From NCBI RefSeq assembly GCF_023072675.1, contig NZ_JALLGL010000013.1, positions 1 to 43,238 of the forward strand: a DNA stretch of 43,238 bases, read 5' to 3'. Made by a program: the position numbers and the translations under genes. A model generated the notes under the pieces. The model searched no databases, was not told the DNA's origin, and saw nothing but the letters and a program-made list of their open reading frames with translations. This DNA comes from Streptomyces sp. XM83C (lineage in GTDB: Bacteria; Actinomycetota; Actinomycetes; Streptomycetales; Streptomycetaceae). Of this stretch, positions 6,129-24,100 are shown in pieces. Position 1 is the stretch's first letter. Each line of letters opens with the position of its first letter.

Positions 6129-7223
<1,095 letters not shown>

Positions 7224-7355
7224 GCCGCCATGATCGGGCACGGGGCGCGCCCGTGCACCCGGTTTCCCGCGCCGTGTGTCGGCGTGCCGCATCCGGGCCG
7301 CCCTGTTGCAAGCTCGTGCATCTGCGACATCTGCCCCGAACCCCCTGTCCGCCGG

Positions 7356-7369: not shown

Positions 7370-8794
7370 ATGGGACGTCATGGGTGGGACTCGGGGGCGC
7401 GTCGGTGGCGGTTCACGGCGCTGCTCGGTGTGGGCGCGGCCGTCGTCGCGCTGGTGGTGACGCTGCTCAACACACTGCCCGGCGGCGGCAGTACGGCCGG
7501 CACCACCCCGGACGGTGCAAAGGTGCACGGCACGCCGCTGACGCCGGACGGGCCGCCCGAGCCGGAGGTCGGCTGGGGTTTCACGCACACCCAGTACAGC
7601 GCCGACCACGGCGCAGGCCAGGCCGTACGGCGGGTCGAGGACGCCCTGAGGGCCCGGCCGATGCCGCAGAACCAGGCGATCATGGGCTGGGGCGCCGACA
7701 ACCCCGAACCGGTGAAGGGGCGTTACGATTTCGCGGCGCTGGACCGCCGGGTCGACTTCGTCCGCGCCTCCGGCGGCACCCCGGTGATCACGCTGTGCTG
7801 CGCGCCGGACTGGATGAAGGGCGGCAAGGCGGGGGCGGGCTCCACGGACTGGAGTCGGGCCGCGCTGGAGACCGCGCCGCGGCCCGAGCACTACGCCGAC
7901 TTCGCGGCGCTCGCCGCGACCGTCGCCGAGCGCTACCCCGATGTGCGGCACTTCATCGTGTGGAACGAGTTCAAGGGCTTCTGGAACGACGCCGAGGCCC
8001 GCTGGGACCACGAGGGCTACACGAAGCTGTACAACCTCGTGTACCGGGCGCTGAAGAAGGTGAACCCCGACATCCTCGTCGGCGGCCCCTATCTGGTGAT
8101 GGACAGCCTCGACCCGCGCGCGCCGAACGCGTCCGGCACGTTCAAGGGACCCTGGGGCGCCATGGACCAGCGGGTGCTGGACGCGTTCGCCTACTGGAAC
8201 CGGCACAAGACGGGCGCCGACTTCGTCGTCGTGGACGGCTCCAGCTACACCAACGACGACGAGCTGCTGCCCGACGAGTTCGCCGCCACCGACAAGTTCA
8301 CCGCCGTCAGCCGCTGGGTGCGGCAGCAGACCGGCGGGCTGCCGCTGTGGTGGGCCGAGTACTACGTGGAGCCCGCCGACGGCGACGACGAACGCAAGGG
8401 CTGGTCGGAGGCGCGCCGCGTCGCCGTACAGGCCGCCGGGATGATCGCCCTGGCCAAGGGCGGCACCACCAGCGGCTTCTACTGGAACCCGGAGAAGGAG
8501 ACCGGCACCGGCTGCGCGGGCTGCCTGTGGACGCCCACCGACCGCGCGGGCGGCGGGCGGACCCTGCCCATGTACGACCTGGTGTCCCGGTTCTCGCAGG
8601 CGTTCCCGCCGGGCACCGCGCAGCGGACCGTGCAGATCGCCGCCGACGACGTGCCCAATGTGCGGGTCCTGGCGAGCGACCGGACCGTGCTGGTGGTCAA
8701 CACGCTCGACCGGCCCATCAGCGCACAGGTGGACGGGCAGCGTTTCGACATGCAGGCGTACGAGGTGAAGTGGCTCGACCGGCGCTCCGGGTGA
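7370..8794 (+). CDS. Membrane-anchored GH39-like glycoside hydrolase
   Basis: A 474-residue protein with one N-terminal membrane anchor (about 14-36) and an extracellular TIM-barrel like GH39/GH-A xylosidases and the exopolysaccharide hydrolase PslG. The acid/base is Glu200 in HFIVWNEF, and the nucleophile is likely Glu330 in PLWWAEYY. A short beta-sandwich-like tail follows the barrel. It faces an operon for polysaccharide export and modification, and the two genes' stops are only 15 bases apart. I infer a role in trimming or releasing that polysaccharide, comparable to PslG; the substrate is not known. The start is the ATG just after a -10-like box, giving a short cytosolic tail before the membrane segment. 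Confidence 0.82.
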   Translation: MGRHGWDSGARRWRFTALLGVGAAVVALVVTLLNTLPGGGSTAGTTPDGAKVHGTPLTPDGPPEPEVGWGFTHTQYSADHGAGQAVRRVEDALRARPMPQNQAIMGWGADNPEPVKGRYDFAALDRRVDFVRASGGTPVITLCCAPDWMKGGKAGAGSTDWSRAALETAPRPEHYADFAALAATVAERYPDVRHFIVWNEFKGFWNDAEARWDHEGYTKLYNLVYRALKKVNPDILVGGPYLVMDSLDPRAPNASGTFKGPWGAMDQRVLDAFAYWNRHKTGADFVVVDGSSYTNDDELLPDEFAATDKFTAVSRWVRQQTGGLPLWWAEYYVEPADGDDERKGWSEARRVAVQAAGMIALAKGGTTSGFYWNPEKETGTGCAGCLWTPTDRAGGGRTLPMYDLVSRFSQAFPPGTAQRTVQIAADDVPNVRVLASDRTVLVVNTLDRPISAQVDGQRFDMQAYEVKWLDRRSG

Positions 8795-8809
8795 GCCGCT
8801 TCACGGGAC

Positions 8810-11800
8810 CTACTTCATCGTCAGGAACCGCTGCACCAGCGCCGCGAACACCACCGCGAGCAGCGGCAGCGCGAACCAGAACGAACCCTGTAGCACCCGC
8901 AGCTGCCGCACGCCGGGCCGGACCGCCACCCGCACCGCTTCCCGCACCGCCAGCAGCAGGACCAGCGCGACCGCCGCGATGCCCCCGACGACCGACCACG
9001 GCGTCCAGGTCACCTGCGGCCCGATCGGACCGGGGTCGGCCTTCGCCGGCTTGCCCTCCGGCGGCTGCCTGAGGGCGTACATCGTCACGTCCTCGTTGCT
9101 GAACACCCGCGTCAGCTCCGGACGCCGGTCCAGGTTCTCCAGCAGCCGCGGCTCCCAGGTGTCCGAATAGCCCACGTCCAGCCGGAGATACACGACCTGA
9201 CTGCGGTTGACCATCAGATACGAGTTCGGGCCGGCGTCCTTCAACGCCTTCACCAGCCCCGACACCAGCACCGGGTCGCTCGGCGCGAGCGTCGGCACGT
9301 AGTTCACCTTCTCCATGTCGCGGGCGCCCCACGGCATCGCCGGTGTCACATTGGTGTACGTGTCGTTGCTCAGCCACAGCACCCGCACCGTAGGGTCGTC
9401 GTGCGCGTACACGTACTCCATCGCGGCGACCTCGCCGGGCCGGATCCGCTCGAACGGCTCGTTGCCCCAGCGGGCCACCAGGAACCCGCCGATCAGCAGC
9501 ACACCCGCGAGCAGCGCCGCGAGCGGGGCGAGACTCACCCGGTCCTTGTCGCGTTCCTCCGCGGTGACACCCGAGCGCGGGAACAGGGCGAGACCGGCGA
9601 GCAGCGCGGCGCCGGGCAGCGCGAACATGAACACGCGCAGCGCCATCTCACCGCCGTACGACTGCATCCCGAAACCGAGGAACGGCACGAAGGTGAGCAC
9701 CAGCAGCGACCGCTCCCGGTAGCGGTGCTCGCGCCGCCGCCACCAGCCCCAGCAGGCGAACGCCATCACCCCGCCGGCCAGCGCGACCCGCGTGTACAGC
9801 ACCAGCTTGTGGGAGGAGCTGCCGCCCTCGATCCGGCCGGACACCGACGACGACACGTTGTCGCCGACGCCGCCGACCCCGCCGAACAGCTCGTCGAAGT
9901 GGCCCGACCAGTACGGCTCGGCCATGTACCCGACCCACACCGCGACCAGCACCGCGAACAGCAGCGGCAGCCCGCGCAGTTCGCACTTGCCGAGCACGAC
10001 CAGCGCGGCCAGCACGCCCAGCATCACGAACGGGGTGAGCTGGTGGGCCGGCACGCACGCCGCGTACAGGCCGATCACCACCGCGAGCAGCACCGCCCGC
10101 TGCCGCCGGTCGGTCGGCTCCACCTCCGCCTCGCCGGGGCGGCGGCTGCCCCACAGCACGCGCGGCGGGCGGAACCACACCAGCAGGATCGCCACGAACA
10201 TCAGATACAGCAGATAGGTGAAGCCCTGCGGGGAGAAGTAGTCCTGGCCGACCCAGCCGCCCAGCACGAAGATCCAGACGCCGGTCCACTTGGCGCGCCA
10301 GCTCGCCCGCATCGACCGCACCAGCAGGAACATCGGCACCAGGTAGCAGAGCTGGATCGCCGTCGGCCACCAGCGGATCAGCTCCGAGTGGTCGGAGACC
10401 CCGCACGCCTTCAGCACCATCGCGGCGACCGCGAAGAACCCGGGCCAGCTCCAGCGCGCGTCCAGGTCGGGCACGGCCGCGCCGGTGCGGTCGATGTAGT
10501 CGAGGAAGCCCAGATGCTGCCAGGCCGTCGCGAACCGCGGCTCCGCCTCGATCGCCGCCGGCAGCGCGTGCAGCGACACCACCGTCGCGAGCAGCGTCAC
10601 CAGCAGCAGCGCCCGGTGCTCCCGGCCCAGCCACAGCAGTGACGCGAACACCACCGCCAGCAGCACGGCCCCGGCCAGCGTCGGCAGCGGCAGCACCGAC
10701 ACCAGCCCGAGACCGCCCATGCCGTCCAGGTCCGCCTCGCCGAGCCGCAGCGCGGGCACCCAGTACAGCAGCAGGGCCGCCGCCAGCAGGCAGCCGAGGA
10801 CCACTCCGGCGCGGGTCGGTACCCAGCGAGGGCCCGCCGGCTCCGCGGGCGGCGGGTCCGCCTCCGGGGCCGGCGGCTCGTCCGGCTTCTCGCCGCGCGG
10901 GCCTTCGGCCTCCTCCGGTACGACGATCTCGGCCGTGACGGGATCGACGTACCCGGCGTCGAACACCTCCTCGAACGGGGCGTCGATCTCCGGCTCCCGC
11001 TCCTCGACCGGCAGCCCCAGCTCCGGCACCGCCGGTGTCCCGAGGGGCGGTGTGCCGGGGCCGGGCCGCACGTCGGGGCGGCGCTCCTGATGGTCGAAGT
11101 CGAGGTGCATGCCGAGCGCGAGGGTGTCCTTGTCCAGCGCCCAGGCGGGCCGCCGCGTCCGCGCCCCGGCGGGCTCGGCGGGCGTCCCCAGGTCGGCGAG
11201 GTCACCGTCGGGCGCCGTGTCCTCGACGCGGTCCGCGGGCGCCGCCCGCATCGTCCGGTACAGCTTCGGCGCGGCGATGGCGACGATCACCGCGAGCGCG
11301 GAGATCTCCGCGACGCCCGCGCCGGTGAGGCCCATCCGCGGCAGGAGCAGCAGCGTCAGCCCCAGCACCAGCACGCACAGCAGGCCTTGCAGCCAGGCCA
11401 GTCCGGCGGTGCGGCTCTGCGCGCGCAGCACCGCGAAGTACGTCTCCATCACCACCCGCAGCACCGCGCCGACCGCGAACCAGCGCAGCAGCGGGGTGGC
11501 CGCGTCGGCGTAGCCCGGCCCGAACACACCGAGGATCCAGGGCGCGCCCACGAACAGCGTGCCCGCCACCGGCAGCATGATCCGCGCCATCCGCTTCAGC
11601 GCGGCCCGCGTGTCGGCGGCGAGCCGGCCCGGGGCGTGCGAGCCCTCCACGGTGAGGGAGGCCCCCATGTTGATGGCGAGCAGATTGCACGTGCCGCCGA
11701 TCGTGGTGGTGATGTAGAAGTACGCGTTGTCCTCGGAGCTGACCTGCGAGGCGATGATGACAGGCACCAGGTAGACCACGGCCAGCGAGAACAGCGAGCC

Positions 11801-12583
11801 CGTGTAGTCCCCGGCGAGGAACCGCACCGTCTCCCGCAGCGTCGGCGGTCGGCGCCCCTCGGTCTCCGCCACGTGCCGGGGCACCAGCCGGCGGAAGACC
11901 AGCCAGCCCAGCGGCAGCACGGAGACGGCGATCGCCGCGACCCACGACACGAACACCCCGGTCGTGGGCAGCGCCACCGCGAACGCCACCAGCAGCGCCA
12001 GCTTCACCGCCGAGAACGCGGTGTTGCCGACGGGCACCCACAGCGCGCTGCGCAGCCCGGTCAGCACCCCGTCCTGGAGGGTGAGCAGATTCCACGCGAC
12101 GACGGCCGCGACGAACCCCAGCCCGTTGAGCGGCCCGTGCAGGAACCGGTACGACGGCCCCCACATGTCCAGCGTCAGCAGGAACACCGCCGCGGCCACC
12201 GCCACCATCAGCGAACTTCCCGCATAGGTGCGGAAGATGAACCGCCCGGTGGCGCGGCCGGAGACCGGGATGAACCGGGCCAGGGCACCCGTCAGCGTCA
12301 CCGCGGTCAGCCCCGCGAGGAGCTTCATCGCGGCGATCGCGGCGGAGCCCTGCCCGACCGCCGCCTCGTCGTACCAGCGCGCCGCGGCCAGCCAGAAGCC
12401 GAGGCCGAGCACCGCGGAGATGCCGGTGTTCAGCATCAGCGCGTACGCGTTGCGGAACAGCGGGCTGCCGCCCGGCGGCTTCCCGCTCCGTCGGGGCAGG
12501 CGCAGCAGCCGACGCCGGCCGGGCGGGCCGCTCCCTTCGGCCGCAGGCGACGCTTCGTGGGGTGTGGTCGTCGTGTCAGACAC
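8810..12583 (-). CDS. Wzx-like flippase fused to GT-C/Wzy-like membrane module
   Basis: A 1257-residue inner-membrane protein in three parts. Residues 45-447 form a multi-pass oligosaccharide flippase of the MATE/Wzx (polysaccharide_synt) type. Residues 448-588 are a hydrophilic, acidic and Pro-rich linker. Residues 590-1257 form a second multi-pass module with the motif GQDYFSPQGFTYLLYL and a soluble segment (YTNVTPAMPWGARDMEKVNYVP region) before the last helices, reminiscent of GT-C glycosyltransferases or Wzy polymerases. The joined functions suggest coupled translocation and polymerisation or ligation of a lipid-linked glycan. The GTG start at 12583 overlaps the deacetylase stop by eight bases (GTGTCTGA), indicating translational coupling. 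The activity of the second module is inference. Confidence 0.85.
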   Translation of the reverse strand: MSDTTTTPHEASPAAEGSGPPGRRRLLRLPRRSGKPPGGSPLFRNAYALMLNTGISAVLGLGFWLAAARWYDEAAVGQGSAAIAAMKLLAGLTAVTLTGALARFIPVSGRATGRFIFRTYAGSSLMVAVAAAVFLLTLDMWGPSYRFLHGPLNGLGFVAAVVAWNLLTLQDGVLTGLRSALWVPVGNTAFSAVKLALLVAFAVALPTTGVFVSWVAAIAVSVLPLGWLVFRRLVPRHVAETEGRRPPTLRETVRFLAGDYTGSLFSLAVVYLVPVIIASQVSSEDNAYFYITTTIGGTCNLLAINMGASLTVEGSHAPGRLAADTRAALKRMARIMLPVAGTLFVGAPWILGVFGPGYADAATPLLRWFAVGAVLRVVMETYFAVLRAQSRTAGLAWLQGLLCVLVLGLTLLLLPRMGLTGAGVAEISALAVIVAIAAPKLYRTMRAAPADRVEDTAPDGDLADLGTPAEPAGARTRRPAWALDKDTLALGMHLDFDHQERRPDVRPGPGTPPLGTPAVPELGLPVEEREPEIDAPFEEVFDAGYVDPVTAEIVVPEEAEGPRGEKPDEPPAPEADPPPAEPAGPRWVPTRAGVVLGCLLAAALLLYWVPALRLGEADLDGMGGLGLVSVLPLPTLAGAVLLAVVFASLLWLGREHRALLLVTLLATVVSLHALPAAIEAEPRFATAWQHLGFLDYIDRTGAAVPDLDARWSWPGFFAVAAMVLKACGVSDHSELIRWWPTAIQLCYLVPMFLLVRSMRASWRAKWTGVWIFVLGGWVGQDYFSPQGFTYLLYLMFVAILLVWFRPPRVLWGSRRPGEAEVEPTDRRQRAVLLAVVIGLYAACVPAHQLTPFVMLGVLAALVVLGKCELRGLPLLFAVLVAVWVGYMAEPYWSGHFDELFGGVGGVGDNVSSSVSGRIEGGSSSHKLVLYTRVALAGGVMAFACWGWWRRREHRYRERSLLVLTFVPFLGFGMQSYGGEMALRVFMFALPGAALLAGLALFPRSGVTAEERDKDRVSLAPLAALLAGVLLIGGFLVARWGNEPFERIRPGEVAAMEYVYAHDDPTVRVLWLSNDTYTNVTPAMPWGARDMEKVNYVPTLAPSDPVLVSGLVKALKDAGPNSYLMVNRSQVVYLRLDVGYSDTWEPRLLENLDRRPELTRVFSNEDVTMYALRQPPEGKPAKADPGPIGPQVTWTPWSVVGGIAAVALVLLLAVREAVRVAVRPGVRQLRVLQGSFWFALPLLAVVFAALVQRFLTMK

Positions 12584-13391
12584 GGTCGCGGATGGCCTTC
12601 CGGCGGAGCTGGCGTGTTCTGCGGACCATCGCGTACCCCTTGGTGAGGACGCGGTCCCGGGCGAAGGTGCGGGCGATCGACCGGCCCTCGACGAGCCGGG
12701 CGAACTCGTCGATGGCGGTGCTGCGCCGCACGGTGACACGCCGCAGGGCGTACGGGCCCTGGCGGCGCTGTGCGAGAGCGTTGCCGACGGCCAGGGCCTG
12801 CGCGAACCCGGCCTCCCGCACGGCCTGCCGCACTCGGCGGTCGGAGTAGCCGTACGGGTAGGCGAACGACACCGGCAGCGCGCCGAGCTCCCCGGCGACG
12901 ATGTCCCGGCACAGGGTGAGTTCGCGGCGCAGCCGTGCGTCGTCGAGCTGGTCCAGCTGCGGATGGGTGTGGCTGTGGCCGCCGATCTCGACGCCGGCGT
13001 CGGCGAGGTCCCGTACCTGCTTCCAGTCGAGCATGGTGTCCAGGCCGCCGCCCATGTCGTGGTCGCCGCGCAGCCAGCCGGTGGAGACGAACAGCGTGGC
13101 CGGGAAGCCGTGCTCGGCCAGCACGGGCAGGGCGTGCCGGTGCACGCCCTCGTAGCCGTCGTCGAACGTGATCAGCACCGGACGCCCGGGCAGCGGCGCC
13201 CCGGACCGCCAGCGCGCGGCGAGCGCGGCCGTCGTCAGCGGGGTCATGCCGCGGTCCCCGAGCAGCGCCATCTGCTCGGCGAACGCCTCCGGCGCCACCG
13301 ACAGGGCGCGGGTGGCGTCGTTGGGGCGGGCGGCGACGGCGTGGTACATGAGGATCGGCACGGCCTCGTTCGTCGGTGCGGCCTCACGCAT
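12576..13391 (-). CDS. Polysaccharide deacetylase (NodB/CE4)
   Basis: A 271-residue NodB-fold enzyme that removes acetyl groups from N-acetylated sugars in a glycan. Motif 1 is TFDDGY (75-80, Asp77 base and Asp78 metal ligand) and motif 2 is HSHTHP (139-144, zinc ligands His139 and His143). The later FAYPYGY segment is the catalytic-arginine-region equivalent. No clear signal peptide is seen, so it could act on lipid-linked precursors inside the cell or be exported by another route. It overlaps the upstream GT2 by eight bases (ATGCGTGA) and the downstream flippase by eight, so it belongs firmly to the polysaccharide operon. Confidence 0.9.
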   Translation of the reverse strand: MREAAPTNEAVPILMYHAVAARPNDATRALSVAPEAFAEQMALLGDRGMTPLTTAALAARWRSGAPLPGRPVLITFDDGYEGVHRHALPVLAEHGFPATLFVSTGWLRGDHDMGGGLDTMLDWKQVRDLADAGVEIGGHSHTHPQLDQLDDARLRRELTLCRDIVAGELGALPVSFAYPYGYSDRRVRQAVREAGFAQALAVGNALAQRRQGPYALRRVTVRRSTAIDEFARLVEGRSIARTFARDRVLTKGYAMVRRTRQLRRKAIRDRV

Positions 13392-14502
13392 CGGCGGCCT
13401 CCGCTCTGTCGATCCGCGGCACGGAGAACGCCGTACCGGCCCGGCGTGCCCGCCAGCTCCCCACGGCGTACCCGCCGGCCGCCGCGCACACCCCGGCGAC
13501 GATGGCACCGGCCCGTCCGGCGCCGCCGGGGCGGGCGAGCAGCGCGTCGCGCAGCCCGCGCGCCACCCCGGCGGGCAGCACGCGGGTGGTGTACCGGCGT
13601 TCGGACTCCAGGCCCTTGTCCGCGCCGACGCTGCGCGCGACGAGCGCCTTGGACAGGCCCTCGGCGTAGGCGCGGCTGCGGAAGTAGGCGAAGTACTCAC
13701 GTGCCCGGGGCACCCGGTGGTGGATGACGGCCCGGTCGTCGATCAGCAGCACGGCGTCGGGCCGGGCGCGGCTGAGCCGGATGCACAGTTCCGTCTCCTC
13801 GCAGCCGAGCGGACGCCGGTCGCCGTCCCGGCCGATGCCGGTGGCGAAACCGCCGGCGGCGTCGAAGGCGCTGCGCCGGAAGGAGGCGTTGCCGCCGAGG
13901 ACGTTGCGGACCCGGACCCGGCCGCGGGGCAGACCCTTGTAGGTGCAGCCCACCACCCAGTCGAACTCCTCCGGGAACCAGTCGGGGCGGCGGCCCGACG
14001 CCCACACGGGCAGCGTGCGCCCGCCGACCGCCATCACGCGGGGGTCGGCGTACGCCTCGGCGAACCATCGCAGCCAGTCCCGTTCCGCCACGGCGTCGTC
14101 GTCGAGGAACGCGACGATCTCCCCGCGGGCGGCGGCGATGCCGGTGTTGCGGCCGGCGGACAGTCCGCGCGGCCCGGTGTTGGCGAGGACGCGGACGTCG
14201 TCGGTCTCCTTGTACTCGCGGGTCAGCCGGTCCCGCAGCGCCGGGTTGTGGTCGACGACCAGCAGCGTCTCCAGCGCCGGGTACGACTGTGCCCGTACGG
14301 AGGACACGGCGGCGAGGATGTCCTCCCAGCGGTCCTCGGTGTAGACGCAGACGACGACGGAGACGCCGGGGCCGGGCGGTGCGCCGGGCCGTCCGGCCCC
14401 GCCGCCGGGCCGTCCGGTCTGTGGGCCGGGCCGCCCGGCGGCTGCGTCGGGGTGTCCGGTCGGTGTGCCGGGACCTCCGGTAGGTGTGCCGGGACCTCTC
14501 AA
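13384..14502 (-). CDS. Family 2 glycosyltransferase with Gly/Pro repeat leader
   Basis: A 372-residue GT-A glycosyltransferase. Conserved parts are VSVVVCVYTEDR (47-58), the FLDDD metal/nucleotide motif (132-136), GNASFRRSAFDAAGGF and CEETELCIRL. A hydrophobic C-terminal stretch may touch the membrane. Residues 1-46 are a low-complexity Gly/Pro/Thr leader with PGTPTG repeats. The start is unusual: a TTG at 14502 overlaps the previous gene's stop (TTGA) and has GGAGAGG seven bases ahead, while no better ATG or GTG fits. It should add a sugar to the surface polysaccharide; donor and acceptor are unknown. Confidence 0.85.
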   Translation of the reverse strand: MRGPGTPTGGPGTPTGHPDAAAGRPGPQTGRPGGGAGRPGAPPGPGVSVVVCVYTEDRWEDILAAVSSVRAQSYPALETLLVVDHNPALRDRLTREYKETDDVRVLANTGPRGLSAGRNTGIAAARGEIVAFLDDDAVAERDWLRWFAEAYADPRVMAVGGRTLPVWASGRRPDWFPEEFDWVVGCTYKGLPRGRVRVRNVLGGNASFRRSAFDAAGGFATGIGRDGDRRPLGCEETELCIRLSRARPDAVLLIDDRAVIHHRVPRAREYFAYFRSRAYAEGLSKALVARSVGADKGLESERRYTTRVLPAGVARGLRDALLARPGGAGRAGAIVAGVCAAAGGYAVGSWRARRAGTAFSVPRIDRAEAADA

Positions 14503-15314
14503 CGCACCTCTCCCCGGACCGTGCCGAGCATCGGCGAGCGGCGTTCCTGCCGGCGCAGTTCGCGGCGGTTGGAGCGCTCCTTGAGGATCACCTTGAGCAC
14601 CCGCAGCCCGTCGCGCACGGCCCGCAGATTGCTGGTGCCGTGGATGCGCAGATACTCGTGGCTGGGTATCTCCTGCACTCTCAGTCCGGCCTTGACGACC
14701 CGGATGTTCATCAGGGTCTCCACCTCGAAGCCGGTGCAGTCCAGCTCGATCTTGTCGAGGCAGTGCCGCCAGAACGCGTTGTAGCCGTAGCACAGGTCGG
14801 TGTACCGGGCGCCGAACTTGCGGTTGACGGCCGTGCACAGCGCCCAGTTGCCCAGCTTGCGGATGAAGGTCATGTCGTCGGTGCCGCCGCCGTTGGCGAA
14901 GCGGGAGCCCTTGGCGAAGTCGGCGCCGGAGACGAGGGCGGAGACGTACGACACGATCTCGTTGCCGTCGGCGGAGCCGTCGGCGTCGACCATGACGATG
15001 ATGTCGCCGGTCGCGGCCTCGAAGCCGGTGATCAGGGCGTCCCCCTTGCCCCTGCCCTGCTGGCGCACCACTTTCACACCGGGCCACAGCTCGCGGGCTA
15101 CCTCGACGGTGTTGTCGGTGGAGTTGCCGTCGACGAGGACCACCTCGTGGATCCAGCCGGGCAGGGTCTTGAAGACGTACGGCAGGTTCTCCGCCTCGTT
15201 CATCGCCGGTATGACCACGCTGACCGGCGGGGTGATCGCGAGATGCGAGGAGATCGGCCGGTACTCACCGGCGGTGTGCGGCGTCTGACTGCGCGAAGGC
15301 AGAACTGAGCTCAT
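14499..15314 (-). CDS. DPM1/ArnC-like family 2 glycosyltransferase
   Basis: A 271-residue GT-A enzyme resembling dolichyl-/polyprenyl-phosphate sugar transferases. Visible motifs are PVSVVIPAMNEAENL (30-44), EVVLVDGNSTDNT (57-69), VMVDADGS (107-114, metal binding) and CYGYNAFWR. It has no C-terminal membrane helices, so it is a DPM1-type soluble or peripheral enzyme. It is the first gene of the polysaccharide operon and probably makes a lipid-linked sugar or starts the repeat unit. ATG at 15314 has GAGAGGGA upstream. The stop overlaps the TTG of the next gene by four bases. Confidence 0.88.
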   Translation of the reverse strand: MSSVLPSRSQTPHTAGEYRPISSHLAITPPVSVVIPAMNEAENLPYVFKTLPGWIHEVVLVDGNSTDNTVEVARELWPGVKVVRQQGRGKGDALITGFEAATGDIIVMVDADGSADGNEIVSYVSALVSGADFAKGSRFANGGGTDDMTFIRKLGNWALCTAVNRKFGARYTDLCYGYNAFWRHCLDKIELDCTGFEVETLMNIRVVKAGLRVQEIPSHEYLRIHGTSNLRAVRDGLRVLKVILKERSNRRELRRQERRSPMLGTVRGEVR

Positions 15315-22567: not shown

Positions 22568-24100
22568 TCAGTACGGCCGCCGCACGCGCCGGCGCCACCA
22601 GGCCAGCGCGGTGCCGATCAGCAGCACCCCGGCCGCGCCGGAGGCCGCGGAGGCGGCGATCAGTGTGGTGTCGGTGGAACCGTCCGCGCCGGCCGGTCGC
22701 AGCGCGTCGCCGAGCTGGCTGCGGACGTCCGTGTCACCGCTGGTGCCCTTGGCGAGCGGGCCGCGCGAGCCCTCGGTGGGCAGCGCCACGTACGGGAAGC
22801 TCTTCTCGAACTCCTTGTCGTTCTTGTCGACCGCGTCGCCCAGGTCGTTCTTGGCGCCGACCAGTTCGCCCTCGACGACCTGCAGCGCCGCGTCGATGAC
22901 GTCGTCGGTGAGCCGGCGCCCGTTGGGGAAGCCCGCCTTGTCGCCGTCCAGCACGCCGAGCCGCTTCGGGTGCATCGTCGGCTTGATCGAGGTGTTCAGC
23001 CGGAGTTCCTCCGCGGGGCGCACGTGCGGCGGCTGGTTGAGCCCCTCGACACCCTTCAGGAAGACGTCGACGAGGTCGTTGCGCGGCTCCGCCGGCGCCT
23101 TGATCTTGTAGATCGCCTCGATGAGCTTGGGCAGTTCGGGCTCGGTGACGTTCTTCAGGAACTGCGCGTCGTCCCGCGGGTGGGACGCGTTGAACTTGTC
23201 CTTGTCCTTCTGCGGGTTGACGACCTCGTTCACCAGGGGGTTGCCCAGCCGGGACACCTGCGTCCAGTCGCCGTGCGCGTTCTTGCGCTGCGTCGTCGAC
23301 CAGATGCCCACCACCGGCTGGTGCATCGACTGGGTGATCATGTGGTTGGGCACTTGCAGGGCGATCGTGTTGACGTTGTAGCCCTTGAGGGTGTCGTTGC
23401 CGACCTCGGACAGGTTCCCGCCGTACAGCAGGTCGAAGACCCGCAGGTCGAGGAAGAACGGGTCGTCCGCCTGCCCGGCGAAGGTCTGCGCGCCGCCCGC
23501 CGTCCTGTACACCGCCTGGTGCCGCAGCTTGGCGTAGTCCGGCATGGACGCCTTGCCGACGTTCGACGGGGCGACCGGTACGTCGTCCGCGAGTTTCGTA
23601 CGGGACACCGCGTGCCCCTTCTTCATCTTCACGAGTTCGATGTCGTACGTCTGTGTGACGTTGAGGTCGGGGTCGTCGAGACTGTCGACCGTGCCCGTGT
23701 TGTAGAGGAAGGTGTTCTTGTTCTTCACGTGCGTCTTGAACGTGTAGCGGAAGACCAGGTCGTCCTGGGCGTCCCCGTCGTTGTCGATGTGCAGCTGGTA
23801 CCGCGCGTCCTCGGCGAACGTGTAGAAGTTCGGTCCGCCCGCGGGCTCCTCGAAGGGGATCCAGTTGGCGACGATCGTCGTCGTGTCCGGCTTGTCGGGG
23901 CTGACGAAGGCGTACACGTCGGTGTTGTCGTACTGCGGGGTGCCCGAGATCAGCGGGGCCTCGCGGTGGCTGGAGGCGGACGCCTCCTTCGGTGCCAGCA
24001 CGGCCACGCCGGCGGCCGTGAGCCCTCCGGCGGCCAGCGCAGCGCAGACGAGGGCCGCGACGCTCCTGCGCGCCGCCCCGCTCCTGGAGTCAGATGTCAT
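22568..24100 (-). CDS. DUF4331 surface protein
   Basis: A 510-residue exported protein of the DUF4331 family. A signal peptide (about 1-42) is followed by the family start SSHREAPLISGTPQYDNTD, then VYAFVSPD, FRYTFKT, NMITQSM-type and HPRDDAQFL segments. The C-terminus has a hydrophobic helix (about 478-500) and a WWRRRVRR stop-transfer tail, so the protein is anchored facing outward. No enzyme activity is known to me for the family. It is the first gene of the operon that continues with TPR and NicO genes, and it is divergent from the sigma/anti-sigma pair. A GAGGAC ribosome site lies about ten bases before the ATG. Confidence 0.9.
   Translation of the reverse strand: MTSDSRSGAARRSVAALVCAALAAGGLTAAGVAVLAPKEASASSHREAPLISGTPQYDNTDVYAFVSPDKPDTTTIVANWIPFEEPAGGPNFYTFAEDARYQLHIDNDGDAQDDLVFRYTFKTHVKNKNTFLYNTGTVDSLDDPDLNVTQTYDIELVKMKKGHAVSRTKLADDVPVAPSNVGKASMPDYAKLRHQAVYRTAGGAQTFAGQADDPFFLDLRVFDLLYGGNLSEVGNDTLKGYNVNTIALQVPNHMITQSMHQPVVGIWSTTQRKNAHGDWTQVSRLGNPLVNEVVNPQKDKDKFNASHPRDDAQFLKNVTEPELPKLIEAIYKIKAPAEPRNDLVDVFLKGVEGLNQPPHVRPAEELRLNTSIKPTMHPKRLGVLDGDKAGFPNGRRLTDDVIDAALQVVEGELVGAKNDLGDAVDKNDKEFEKSFPYVALPTEGSRGPLAKGTSGDTDVRSQLGDALRPAGADGSTDTTLIAASAASGAAGVLLIGTALAWWRRRVRRPY

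Follow-up and report, generated by a model that had tools for sequence, protein, structure and literature searches.

A predicted MOP flippase fused to a GT-C-like glycosyltransferase module in Streptomyces: a candidate flip-and-transfer protein with split relatives in other bacteria

The window analysed here, a stretch of 43,238 nucleotides (positions 1 to 43,238 of contig NZ_JALLGL010000013.1, assembly GCF_023072675.1) from Streptomyces sp. XM83C, encodes a 1257-residue membrane protein that joins in one reading frame a module with the predicted fold of MOP flippases and a second multi-pass module (hereafter module 2) with the predicted fold of GT-C glycosyltransferases. On balance we lean towards the view that this protein both flips and transfers a short lipid-linked glycan within a five-step pathway, with module 2, as a GT-C enzyme, probably standing in for Wzy in the assembly of an exopolysaccharide. 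The fusion, the two predicted folds, a conserved gene cassette around them, repeated switching between split and fused states, and the placing of the invariant motifs of module 2 on a single face are established below; the chemistry of the carrier, the order in which the steps follow, polymerisation, acceptor and product are what we infer from them. The fusion protein and its parts, in window coordinates, are:

8810..12583, minus strand: fusion protein, 1257 aa; MOP/Wzx-type flippase, linker expected to be cytosolic, and GT-C glycosyltransferase, folds predicted
11243..12469, minus strand: flippase module, residues 39-447, about 12 helices, predicted MOP fold (AlphaFold2 model, Foldseek and structural Z-scores)
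10814..11242, minus strand: linker, residues 448-590, acidic and Pro-rich by composition
11186..11212, minus strand: linker block PDGDLADLG, residues 458-466, by conservation
11033..11149, minus strand: linker block PAWALDKDTLALG...GTP, residues 479-517, candidate docking segment
8813..10843, minus strand: module 2, residues 581-1257; in the predicted model, two extra helices, a GT-C core with a soluble C-terminal domain (652-1177) and a C-terminal two-helix hairpin
10433..10447, minus strand: WPGFF, residues 713-717, helix start in outer loop 1 of the model; W713 in 75/75 module-2 rows
10226..10249, minus strand: GQDYFSPQ, residues 779-786, outer loop 2; Y782 and Q786 75/75, Q780 70/75, D781 61/75
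10031..10045, minus strand: HQLTP, residues 847-851, outer side; H847 and P851 75/75
9647..9658, minus strand: YGGE, residues 976-979, followed by R983, outer side; Y976 and R983 75/75, E979 73/75

The open reading frame (ORF) runs on the minus strand from a GTG start at 12583 to 8810 with no internal stop, in agreement with the original prediction, and third-position GC content stays at 0.92-0.99 across residues 1-1200, the linker included, so that a break in the frame is unsupported. It is the last gene of an operon that also holds two family 2 glycosyltransferases (GT2A, then GT2B) and a NodB-type deacetylase, with overlaps of 4 (GT2A/GT2B), 8 (GT2B/NodB) and 8 bases (NodB/fusion), the same coupled arrangement that had been described before; on the plus strand a GH39-like gene (7370-8794) converges with it, leaving a stop-to-stop gap of 15 bases. 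The whole fusion found nothing significant in Pfam (Polysacc_synt, E 0.89) and no match in NCBIfam. In the PDB, neither the fusion nor module 2 had a significant sequence match. Among the matches listed, the closest named relative by module 2 is from Streptomyces griseosporeus, at 93% identity.

That the two modules share a frame in the window is confirmed as a real observation by their distribution in other genomes. Contigs scanned with the signature [GND]QDY[FL][SA]PQ[AGS] yielded at least 584 confirmed module-2 relatives, the best 80 of which are all from Streptomyces; at 78 of these 80 named loci a single ORF encodes both flippase and module 2, which argues against a chance join, and the two exceptions (L106, L114) each start where a contig ends. 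In an even sample of the class, 52 of 296 genomes had a relative (17 of the 28 same-genus genomes listed in it, 10 of those with the close fused type); in a sample of the phylum, 12 of 296 had one. The gene neighbourhood was read at 74 places, all picked for holding module 2, with counts silent on genomes that lack it: a flippase is nearby at 66 and in the same frame at 17, GT2B is found at 70, GT2A at 50, NodB at 43 and a glycoside hydrolase (GH) at 20. These places are loci from genome contigs, six named records of a plasmid collection and the window, and derive from 80 survey sources (79 loci and the window) after exclusion of L054-L057 and L063, for which longer copies (L208-L211 and L190) were used, and of L153, which has broken reading frames. 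A scan of viral contigs found no relative among 20 pattern matches.

Split versions, which the original prediction had proposed looking for, occur in several bacteria. Of 72,556 plasmid-collection records searched by tblastn, seven gave a match, none covering more than 80% of the query, and six of these records encode flippase and module 2 in separate frames together with GT2A and GT2B. The split cassettes belong to Nonomuraea gerenzanensis (with NodB and GH), Pseudonocardia autotrophica (NodB and GH, the flippase 4.8 kb off), Sinorhizobium fredii, Ensifer adhaerens and Shinella zoogloeoides (NodB), and Deinococcus aetherius, in whose stretch NodB was not seen. The Deinococcus record labels module 2 'hypothetical protein' and gives the name 'oligosaccharide flippase family protein' to a gene close by; the Pseudonocardia record and a broken Rhizobium record also call module 2 'hypothetical protein' (three records in all). 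The broken record is a plasmid of Rhizobium sp. RCAM05350 (L153, 6355-10450), where flippase and module-2 genes are in disrupted frames, through decay or sequencing error.

A tree of 75 module-2 rows from the 74 places (L160 and L177 with two copies each, L183 too short for inclusion) requires repeated change between these states. Its well-supported branches force at least three changes for the flippase-GT-C arrangement, at least two for flippase-GT2B-GT-C and at least two for GT2B-GT-C, changes that may include losses of fusion; long branches, including those of L161 and L156, make parts of the tree unsure. For the two rarest labels, 15/500 and 500/500 label shuffles were as low as the tree, the labels being too few for firm clustering. 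Flippase, GT2B and GT-C follow in that order in a single open frame at L156 (1322 aa), L208 (1928) and L209 (1909 aa); the last two lengths are from stop to stop, with the flippase beginning near residue 514, and the proteins are probably about 1400 aa. At L161 a single frame holds a GT2 domain, then the flippase, then GT-C, and at L179 and L211 GT2B is joined to GT-C. Because natural fusion of flippase and GT-C appears more than once, sometimes with a glycosyltransferase between the two, it argues for coupling of flipping and transfer.

The AlphaFold model of residues 26-480 (predicted local distance difference test, pLDDT, 76.8), built from an alignment of 57 Streptomyces rows (56 drawn from 77 possible loci, plus the window), clearly has the MOP/Wzx-MurJ flippase fold. 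Its closest structures are WzxE (Foldseek E 6.6e-7, template modelling (TM) scores 0.67/0.73; Z 27.8) and MurJ (Z 28.4, root-mean-square deviation 3.2 over 384 residues), and all 50 structure rows listed for each search are MOP proteins by title, save 5c6n ('protein A') in both. The Wzx/MATE-like flippase earlier placed at residues 45-447 thus finds a match in the predicted fold. In Pfam, the window module alone scores 18.3 bits against Polysacc_synt, below the cut-off of 28.2, and 14 diverse flippase rows give matches at E <= 0.01 to Polysacc_synt in six (best 2.8e-8) and to MatE in one (4.5e-6). This half of the protein would translocate a lipid-linked glycan.

Related flippases carry other additions elsewhere. 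At L148 (10213-11304), L154 (10204-11406) and L189 (7624-8694), of which two are rhizobial and one is from another genome of the phylum, the flippase is extended at its C terminus by a stretch that matches the APH phosphotransferase family (E 3.6e-9 to 1.3e-12), recalling the kinase-like domain that mycobacterial MurJ carries. At L174 (58-2676, minus strand) a flippase shares a frame with AMP-binding, carrier and thioesterase domains. A second Streptomyces type (L058, L059, L193, L194, L198) has a C-terminally extended flippase with a partial, diverged module-2 match and, adjoining it, a complete separate module 2; YGTxWA-like stretches occur in several of these flippase extensions.

For module 2, comparison of folds, another step that had been proposed, placed the predicted structure in a glycan family, GT-C. 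The AlphaFold model of residues 652-1177 (pLDDT 71.7, predicted TM-score 0.72; alignment of 81 Streptomyces rows) found AglB, ArnT, AftA, AftD, STT3 and PglB as its first 15 Foldseek rows (E 6e-4 to 0.18). By structural Z-score, 38 of the 39 rows from 16.8 to 9.6 are by title GT-C enzymes or oligosaccharyltransferase complexes (STT3/AglB/PglB, ArnT, ALG, PMT, Emb/Aft and DPY19), the 39th being a translocon-complex chain that we take for its oligosaccharyltransferase subunit, and below 9.6 the rows fall to Z 7.3 and unrelated proteins. Individual values are 16.8 for STT3, 15.5 for AglB, 14.3 for ArnT, 13.7 for PglB and 13.5 for ALG12. Wzy and ligase folds are not among the structure rows listed, an absence that speaks for those rows only. 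A search of a viral structure library gave nothing at E <0.001. The model thus suggests a GT-C glycosyltransferase fold for residues 652-1177.

Profile comparison (hhalign; 25 PMT_2 and 27 Wzy_C loci as rows, out of 30 supplied for each) points the same way: module 2 aligned with PMT_2 proteins at 83.8% over 149 columns, colinear with WPGFF, GQDYFSPQ and HQLTP, with Wzy_C proteins at 28.5% over 58 columns and with the flippase at 0.2%. Among the controls, flippase versus Wzy_C gave 0.3% and PMT_2 versus flippase 2.3%, and because PMT_2 versus Wzy_C reached 79.1%, over 40 columns, we treat the profiles as supporting evidence only. STT3, tried as a further comparison profile, matched in three of 40 genomes, none above cut-off. 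No Pfam family matched module 2 significantly, in the window or in 23 module-2 rows; Wzy models in particular gave nothing at E <= 1 in the window protein and nothing at E <= 0.1 in the 23 rows. At L190 (6253-6618) a small separate ORF (E 3.9e-6) looks like the two-helix hairpin that ends module 2. A separate hairpin gene as a wider feature was set aside, the support coming from one genome (L063 is the same place as L190); the next match, L191, had E 0.0035 and the remaining loci exceeded 0.4.

The conservation counts listed above are from 75 module-2 rows, window included, in which H690 is also kept in 72. The GQDYFSPQ motif singled out in the original prediction is present, starting at residue 779. 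With 15 membrane helices of module 2 chosen by hand from the model, the conserved motifs fall in or beside loops of one membrane side. We take that side to be the outer face, as expected of GT-C enzymes, because the loops opposite carry more positive charge: inner loops hold 17 Lys+Arg against 12 Asp+Glu, and outer loops 6 against 16, the large C-terminal domain left out.

Between the modules, the window linker (143 residues) contains 28 Pro, 33 Asp+Glu and 12 Lys+Arg, a composition that agrees with the acidic, Pro-rich linker reported before. Linkers cut out at 74 of the 80 named loci sought are 84-418 residues long (median 166), with 16% Pro and a mean net charge of -12. New relative to the original prediction is the strong conservation of parts of the linker: in both blocks most columns are at least 80% identical to the window among 75 linkers, and the surrounding stretches are variable. 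Since flippase and module 2 should both join the linker on the inside, it is expected to be cytosolic, and we speculate that it serves as a docking site for GT2A, GT2B, NodB or another cytosolic partner.

The neighbouring genes suggest the chemistry that the fusion may serve:

14499..15314, minus strand: GT2A, 271 aa; Pfam GT2, 88 bits; resembles polyprenyl-phosphate sugar synthases
13384..14502, minus strand: GT2B, 372 aa, TTG start; Pfam GT2, 84.9 bits; resembles AglG
12576..13391, minus strand: NodB-type polysaccharide deacetylase, signal peptide not obvious by eye; Pfam, 100 bits
7370..8794, plus strand: GH39-like hydrolase with an N-terminal membrane anchor seen by eye; Pfam GH39, 31.4 bits (cut-off 26)
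6129..7292, minus strand: DUF5925 and AAA ATPase by Pfam; may lie outside the pathway

GT2A, GT2B and NodB all score well above their Pfam cut-offs. GT2A matches dolichol-phosphate mannose synthase (DPMS; 1.9e-23) and then ArnC (the Und-P-Ara4FN transferase, Und-P being undecaprenyl phosphate; 4e-10) in PDB, and its best NCBIfam profile is AglJ (143 bits, below the equivalog cut-off of 325). GT2B has distant PDB matches (best 3.4e-7) and AglG as its best profile (234 bits, cut-off 440). DPMS and ArnC make lipid-phosphate sugars, the donors that GT-C enzymes use, and AglJ/AglG-type haloarchaeal enzymes build glycans on dolichyl monophosphate. These likenesses hint at a polyprenyl-monophosphate carrier. 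The NodB protein matches polysaccharide deacetylases in PDB, and the hydrolase, as had been claimed for the gene facing the fusion, belongs with GH39; the two enzymes would fit an amino-sugar-containing polysaccharide. A Bac_transf phosphoglycosyltransferase is absent from the window contig (C44), a WecA-type enzyme not having been searched for and the assembly being in 720 contigs. Elsewhere in the same genome, on other contigs, there are two Bac_transf matches (C180, C85), one Polysacc_synt flippase and three matches to Wzy_C, for which reason the fusion cassette looks like a second, separate polysaccharide system, with the caution that 720 contigs impose. The DUF5925-AAA ATPase always accompanies the fused type of Streptomyces: it lies near module 2 at 12 of the 74 places, each of them of that type. 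A DUF4331 protein (E 3e-165) is encoded elsewhere in the window (22571-24100).

In the pathway that we propose, GT2A would load the first sugar onto polyprenyl phosphate and GT2B would extend it; the cytosolic NodB enzyme would then take off acetyl groups, and the N-terminal MOP flippase would turn the lipid-linked glycan across the membrane. At the outer face the fused GT-C module would receive the glycan and transfer it, most likely building an exopolysaccharide, and the membrane-anchored GH39-like hydrolase would trim or clear the product. We prefer to see a GT-C enzyme as the counterpart of Wzy on the strength of the carrier-type GT2s, the apparent separateness of the system, and the GH39-like and NodB enzymes, which would fit polysaccharide; for module 2 itself, polymerase activity, donor, acceptor and product are what we infer. 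A more tentative extension is that this is a polysaccharide assembly route not described before, in which AglJ/AglG-like enzymes would build repeat units on polyprenyl monophosphate, a Wzx-like module would flip them and GT-C would polymerise them, with substrate handed over within the chain. If true, some lineages would have glycosyltransferase, flippase and polymerase within one polypeptide.

A GT-C enzyme could instead decorate a polymer or glycosylate protein, and the nearest competitor, which we give perhaps one chance in several, is decoration of the three-component type: GT2A would make a polyprenyl-phosphate monosaccharide, the flippase half would turn it, and GT-C would decorate a wall polymer of other origin with single sugars or short branches. 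A DPMS/ArnC-like GT2, a flippase and a GT-C enzyme make up such systems (PMC11127046, PMC13390465). Those systems, however, use the small GtrA flippase, whereas the fold here is MOP, the kind used for larger lipid-linked glycans, and the presence of GT2B (at 70 of the 74 places, sometimes inside the fusion), of NodB and of a GH speaks for a unit of several sugars and for a polymer specific to the cassette. We regard it as improbable that module 2 is an oligosaccharyltransferase passing the flipped glycan to secreted proteins in the manner of AglB or PglB. STT3, AglB and PglB are among its top structure rows and GT2A/GT2B recall AglJ/AglG of archaeal N-glycosylation, but ArnT and ALG12 score nearly as high, for which reason the fold does not single out oligosaccharyltransferases. 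These enzymes carry a WWDxG motif, and WWD is absent from all 1257 residues of the fusion; the GH39-like hydrolase and NodB, moreover, suggest polysaccharide.

The original prediction, a Wzx and a Wzy in a single chain, is partly supported: the predicted fold bears out its flippase half, whereas a strict Wzy half is not supported. A strict Wzx-Wzy fusion, with module 2 in the Wzy/O-antigen ligase family, has in its favour the adjoining Wzx-type flippase, the many membrane helices and the lack of another Wzy candidate in the operon; the missing Wzy Pfam match, the GT-C enzymes as best structure rows and the low Wzy_C profile score make it very unlikely. Just as little credit is due to the idea that the chain is not one working protein, being cleaved or an accidental join of unrelated halves. 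The long linker of variable length would suit such a join, but the fusion recurs at 78 of 80 loci, split and fused forms alternate on the tree, and linker blocks are conserved.

Several observations weigh against the flip-and-transfer reading as a whole. Eight of the 74 places have no detected flippase in the stretch read; at two of them (L170, L210) the contig ends at the gene and at a third (L182) 4.6 kb beyond, and the remaining five (L166, L168, L171, L188, L190) are not cut by a nearby contig end. Flippase matches are weak at two of the 66 other places (L162, L186). Both models derive from shallow, all-Streptomyces alignments of near relatives, and the other four of the five module-2 models reached pLDDT of only 52.5-57.9. 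A single GT-C row has E <0.001 (6.1e-4), GT-C TM-scores from Foldseek are low (0.2-0.4), and helical models can score Z 13-14 without kinship, by shared arrangement, for which reason we give the gap in Z and the uniform GT-C make-up more weight than single Z values; the PMT_2-Wzy_C profile control belongs here too. In GT-C enzymes the first outer loop usually has an acidic residue that never varies. Module 2, contrary to a textbook GT-C mechanism, has none in loop 1 (D708, 51/75), and the loop-2 D781 varies as well (61/75). The monophosphate carrier is a hint only, since GT2A and GT2B fall far under the AglJ and AglG cut-offs. Genes on other contigs of the assembly might, finally, lie near the window.

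To our knowledge, how a flipped lipid-linked glycan passes to the outer-face enzyme is an open question in Wzx-type pathways. Many Streptomyces appear to join in one protein two jobs that are divided between adjacent genes in many related bacteria, and such natural fusions offer one-chain objects for structure work and reconstitution. A large membrane-protein family, called 'hypothetical protein' in the three annotated records read, gains a function class, and the cassette suggests that a polysaccharide yet to be characterised is widespread in Streptomyces; rhizobia and Deinococcus have related cassettes. Neither the cassette as a system nor a natural fusion of the flippase-GT-C or Wzx-Wzy kind was found in titles and abstract openings, a coverage outside which most subscription journals lie.

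Wzx-type flippases, GT-C enzymes, three-component systems and a GT-C protein proposed as Wzy are already known. As in the Wzx/Wzy-dependent pathway, a Wzx-type MOP flippase stands beside or is fused to a polytopic outer-face enzyme, with cytosolic glycosyltransferases and a modifying enzyme; unlike in that pathway, the outer-face enzyme of the window is predicted to be GT-C rather than of the Wzy family, and Bac_transf is missing from the window contig. With three-component glycosylation (GT2, GtrA and GT-C; PMC11127046) the cassette shares a polyprenyl-phosphate-synthase-like GT2, a flippase and, by predicted fold, a GT-C enzyme. It differs in that its flippase is MOP where those systems have GtrA, that flippase and GT-C are joined in one chain, and that another GT2, a deacetylase and a hydrolase are added.

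The imp cluster of Actinoplanes missouriensis offers another parallel. In its published description (PMC12691653) the Wzx role is proposed for ImpC and the Wzy role for ImpE, which has an Alg6_Alg8 domain; the impE mutant has squashed sporangia and releases few spores. The likeness, drawn from that description and not from sequence, is a GT-C-type protein proposed as Wzy beside a Wzx candidate; in the imp cluster, by contrast, the genes are separate and are described with three GT4 enzymes and one GT2. Likeness to it was also sought at the flippase-less, perhaps Micromonospora-like loci L166, L168, L171 and L182, giving no lead. The haloarchaeal AglJ, AglG and AepG are GT2s of dolichyl-monophosphate pathways, and AepG makes dolichyl-phosphate glucuronic acid (DolP-GlcA) for exopolysaccharide (PMC9943897); GT2A and GT2B are well under the equivalog cut-offs, however, and AepG is likened by description only. 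PslG was the relative first suggested for the hydrolase. PslG itself is matched weakly (E 0.0012, 62 residues only), behind GH39 xylosidases (1.4e-5), but the GH39 family assignment holds, and with it the likeness of a membrane-anchored hydrolase at a polysaccharide locus.

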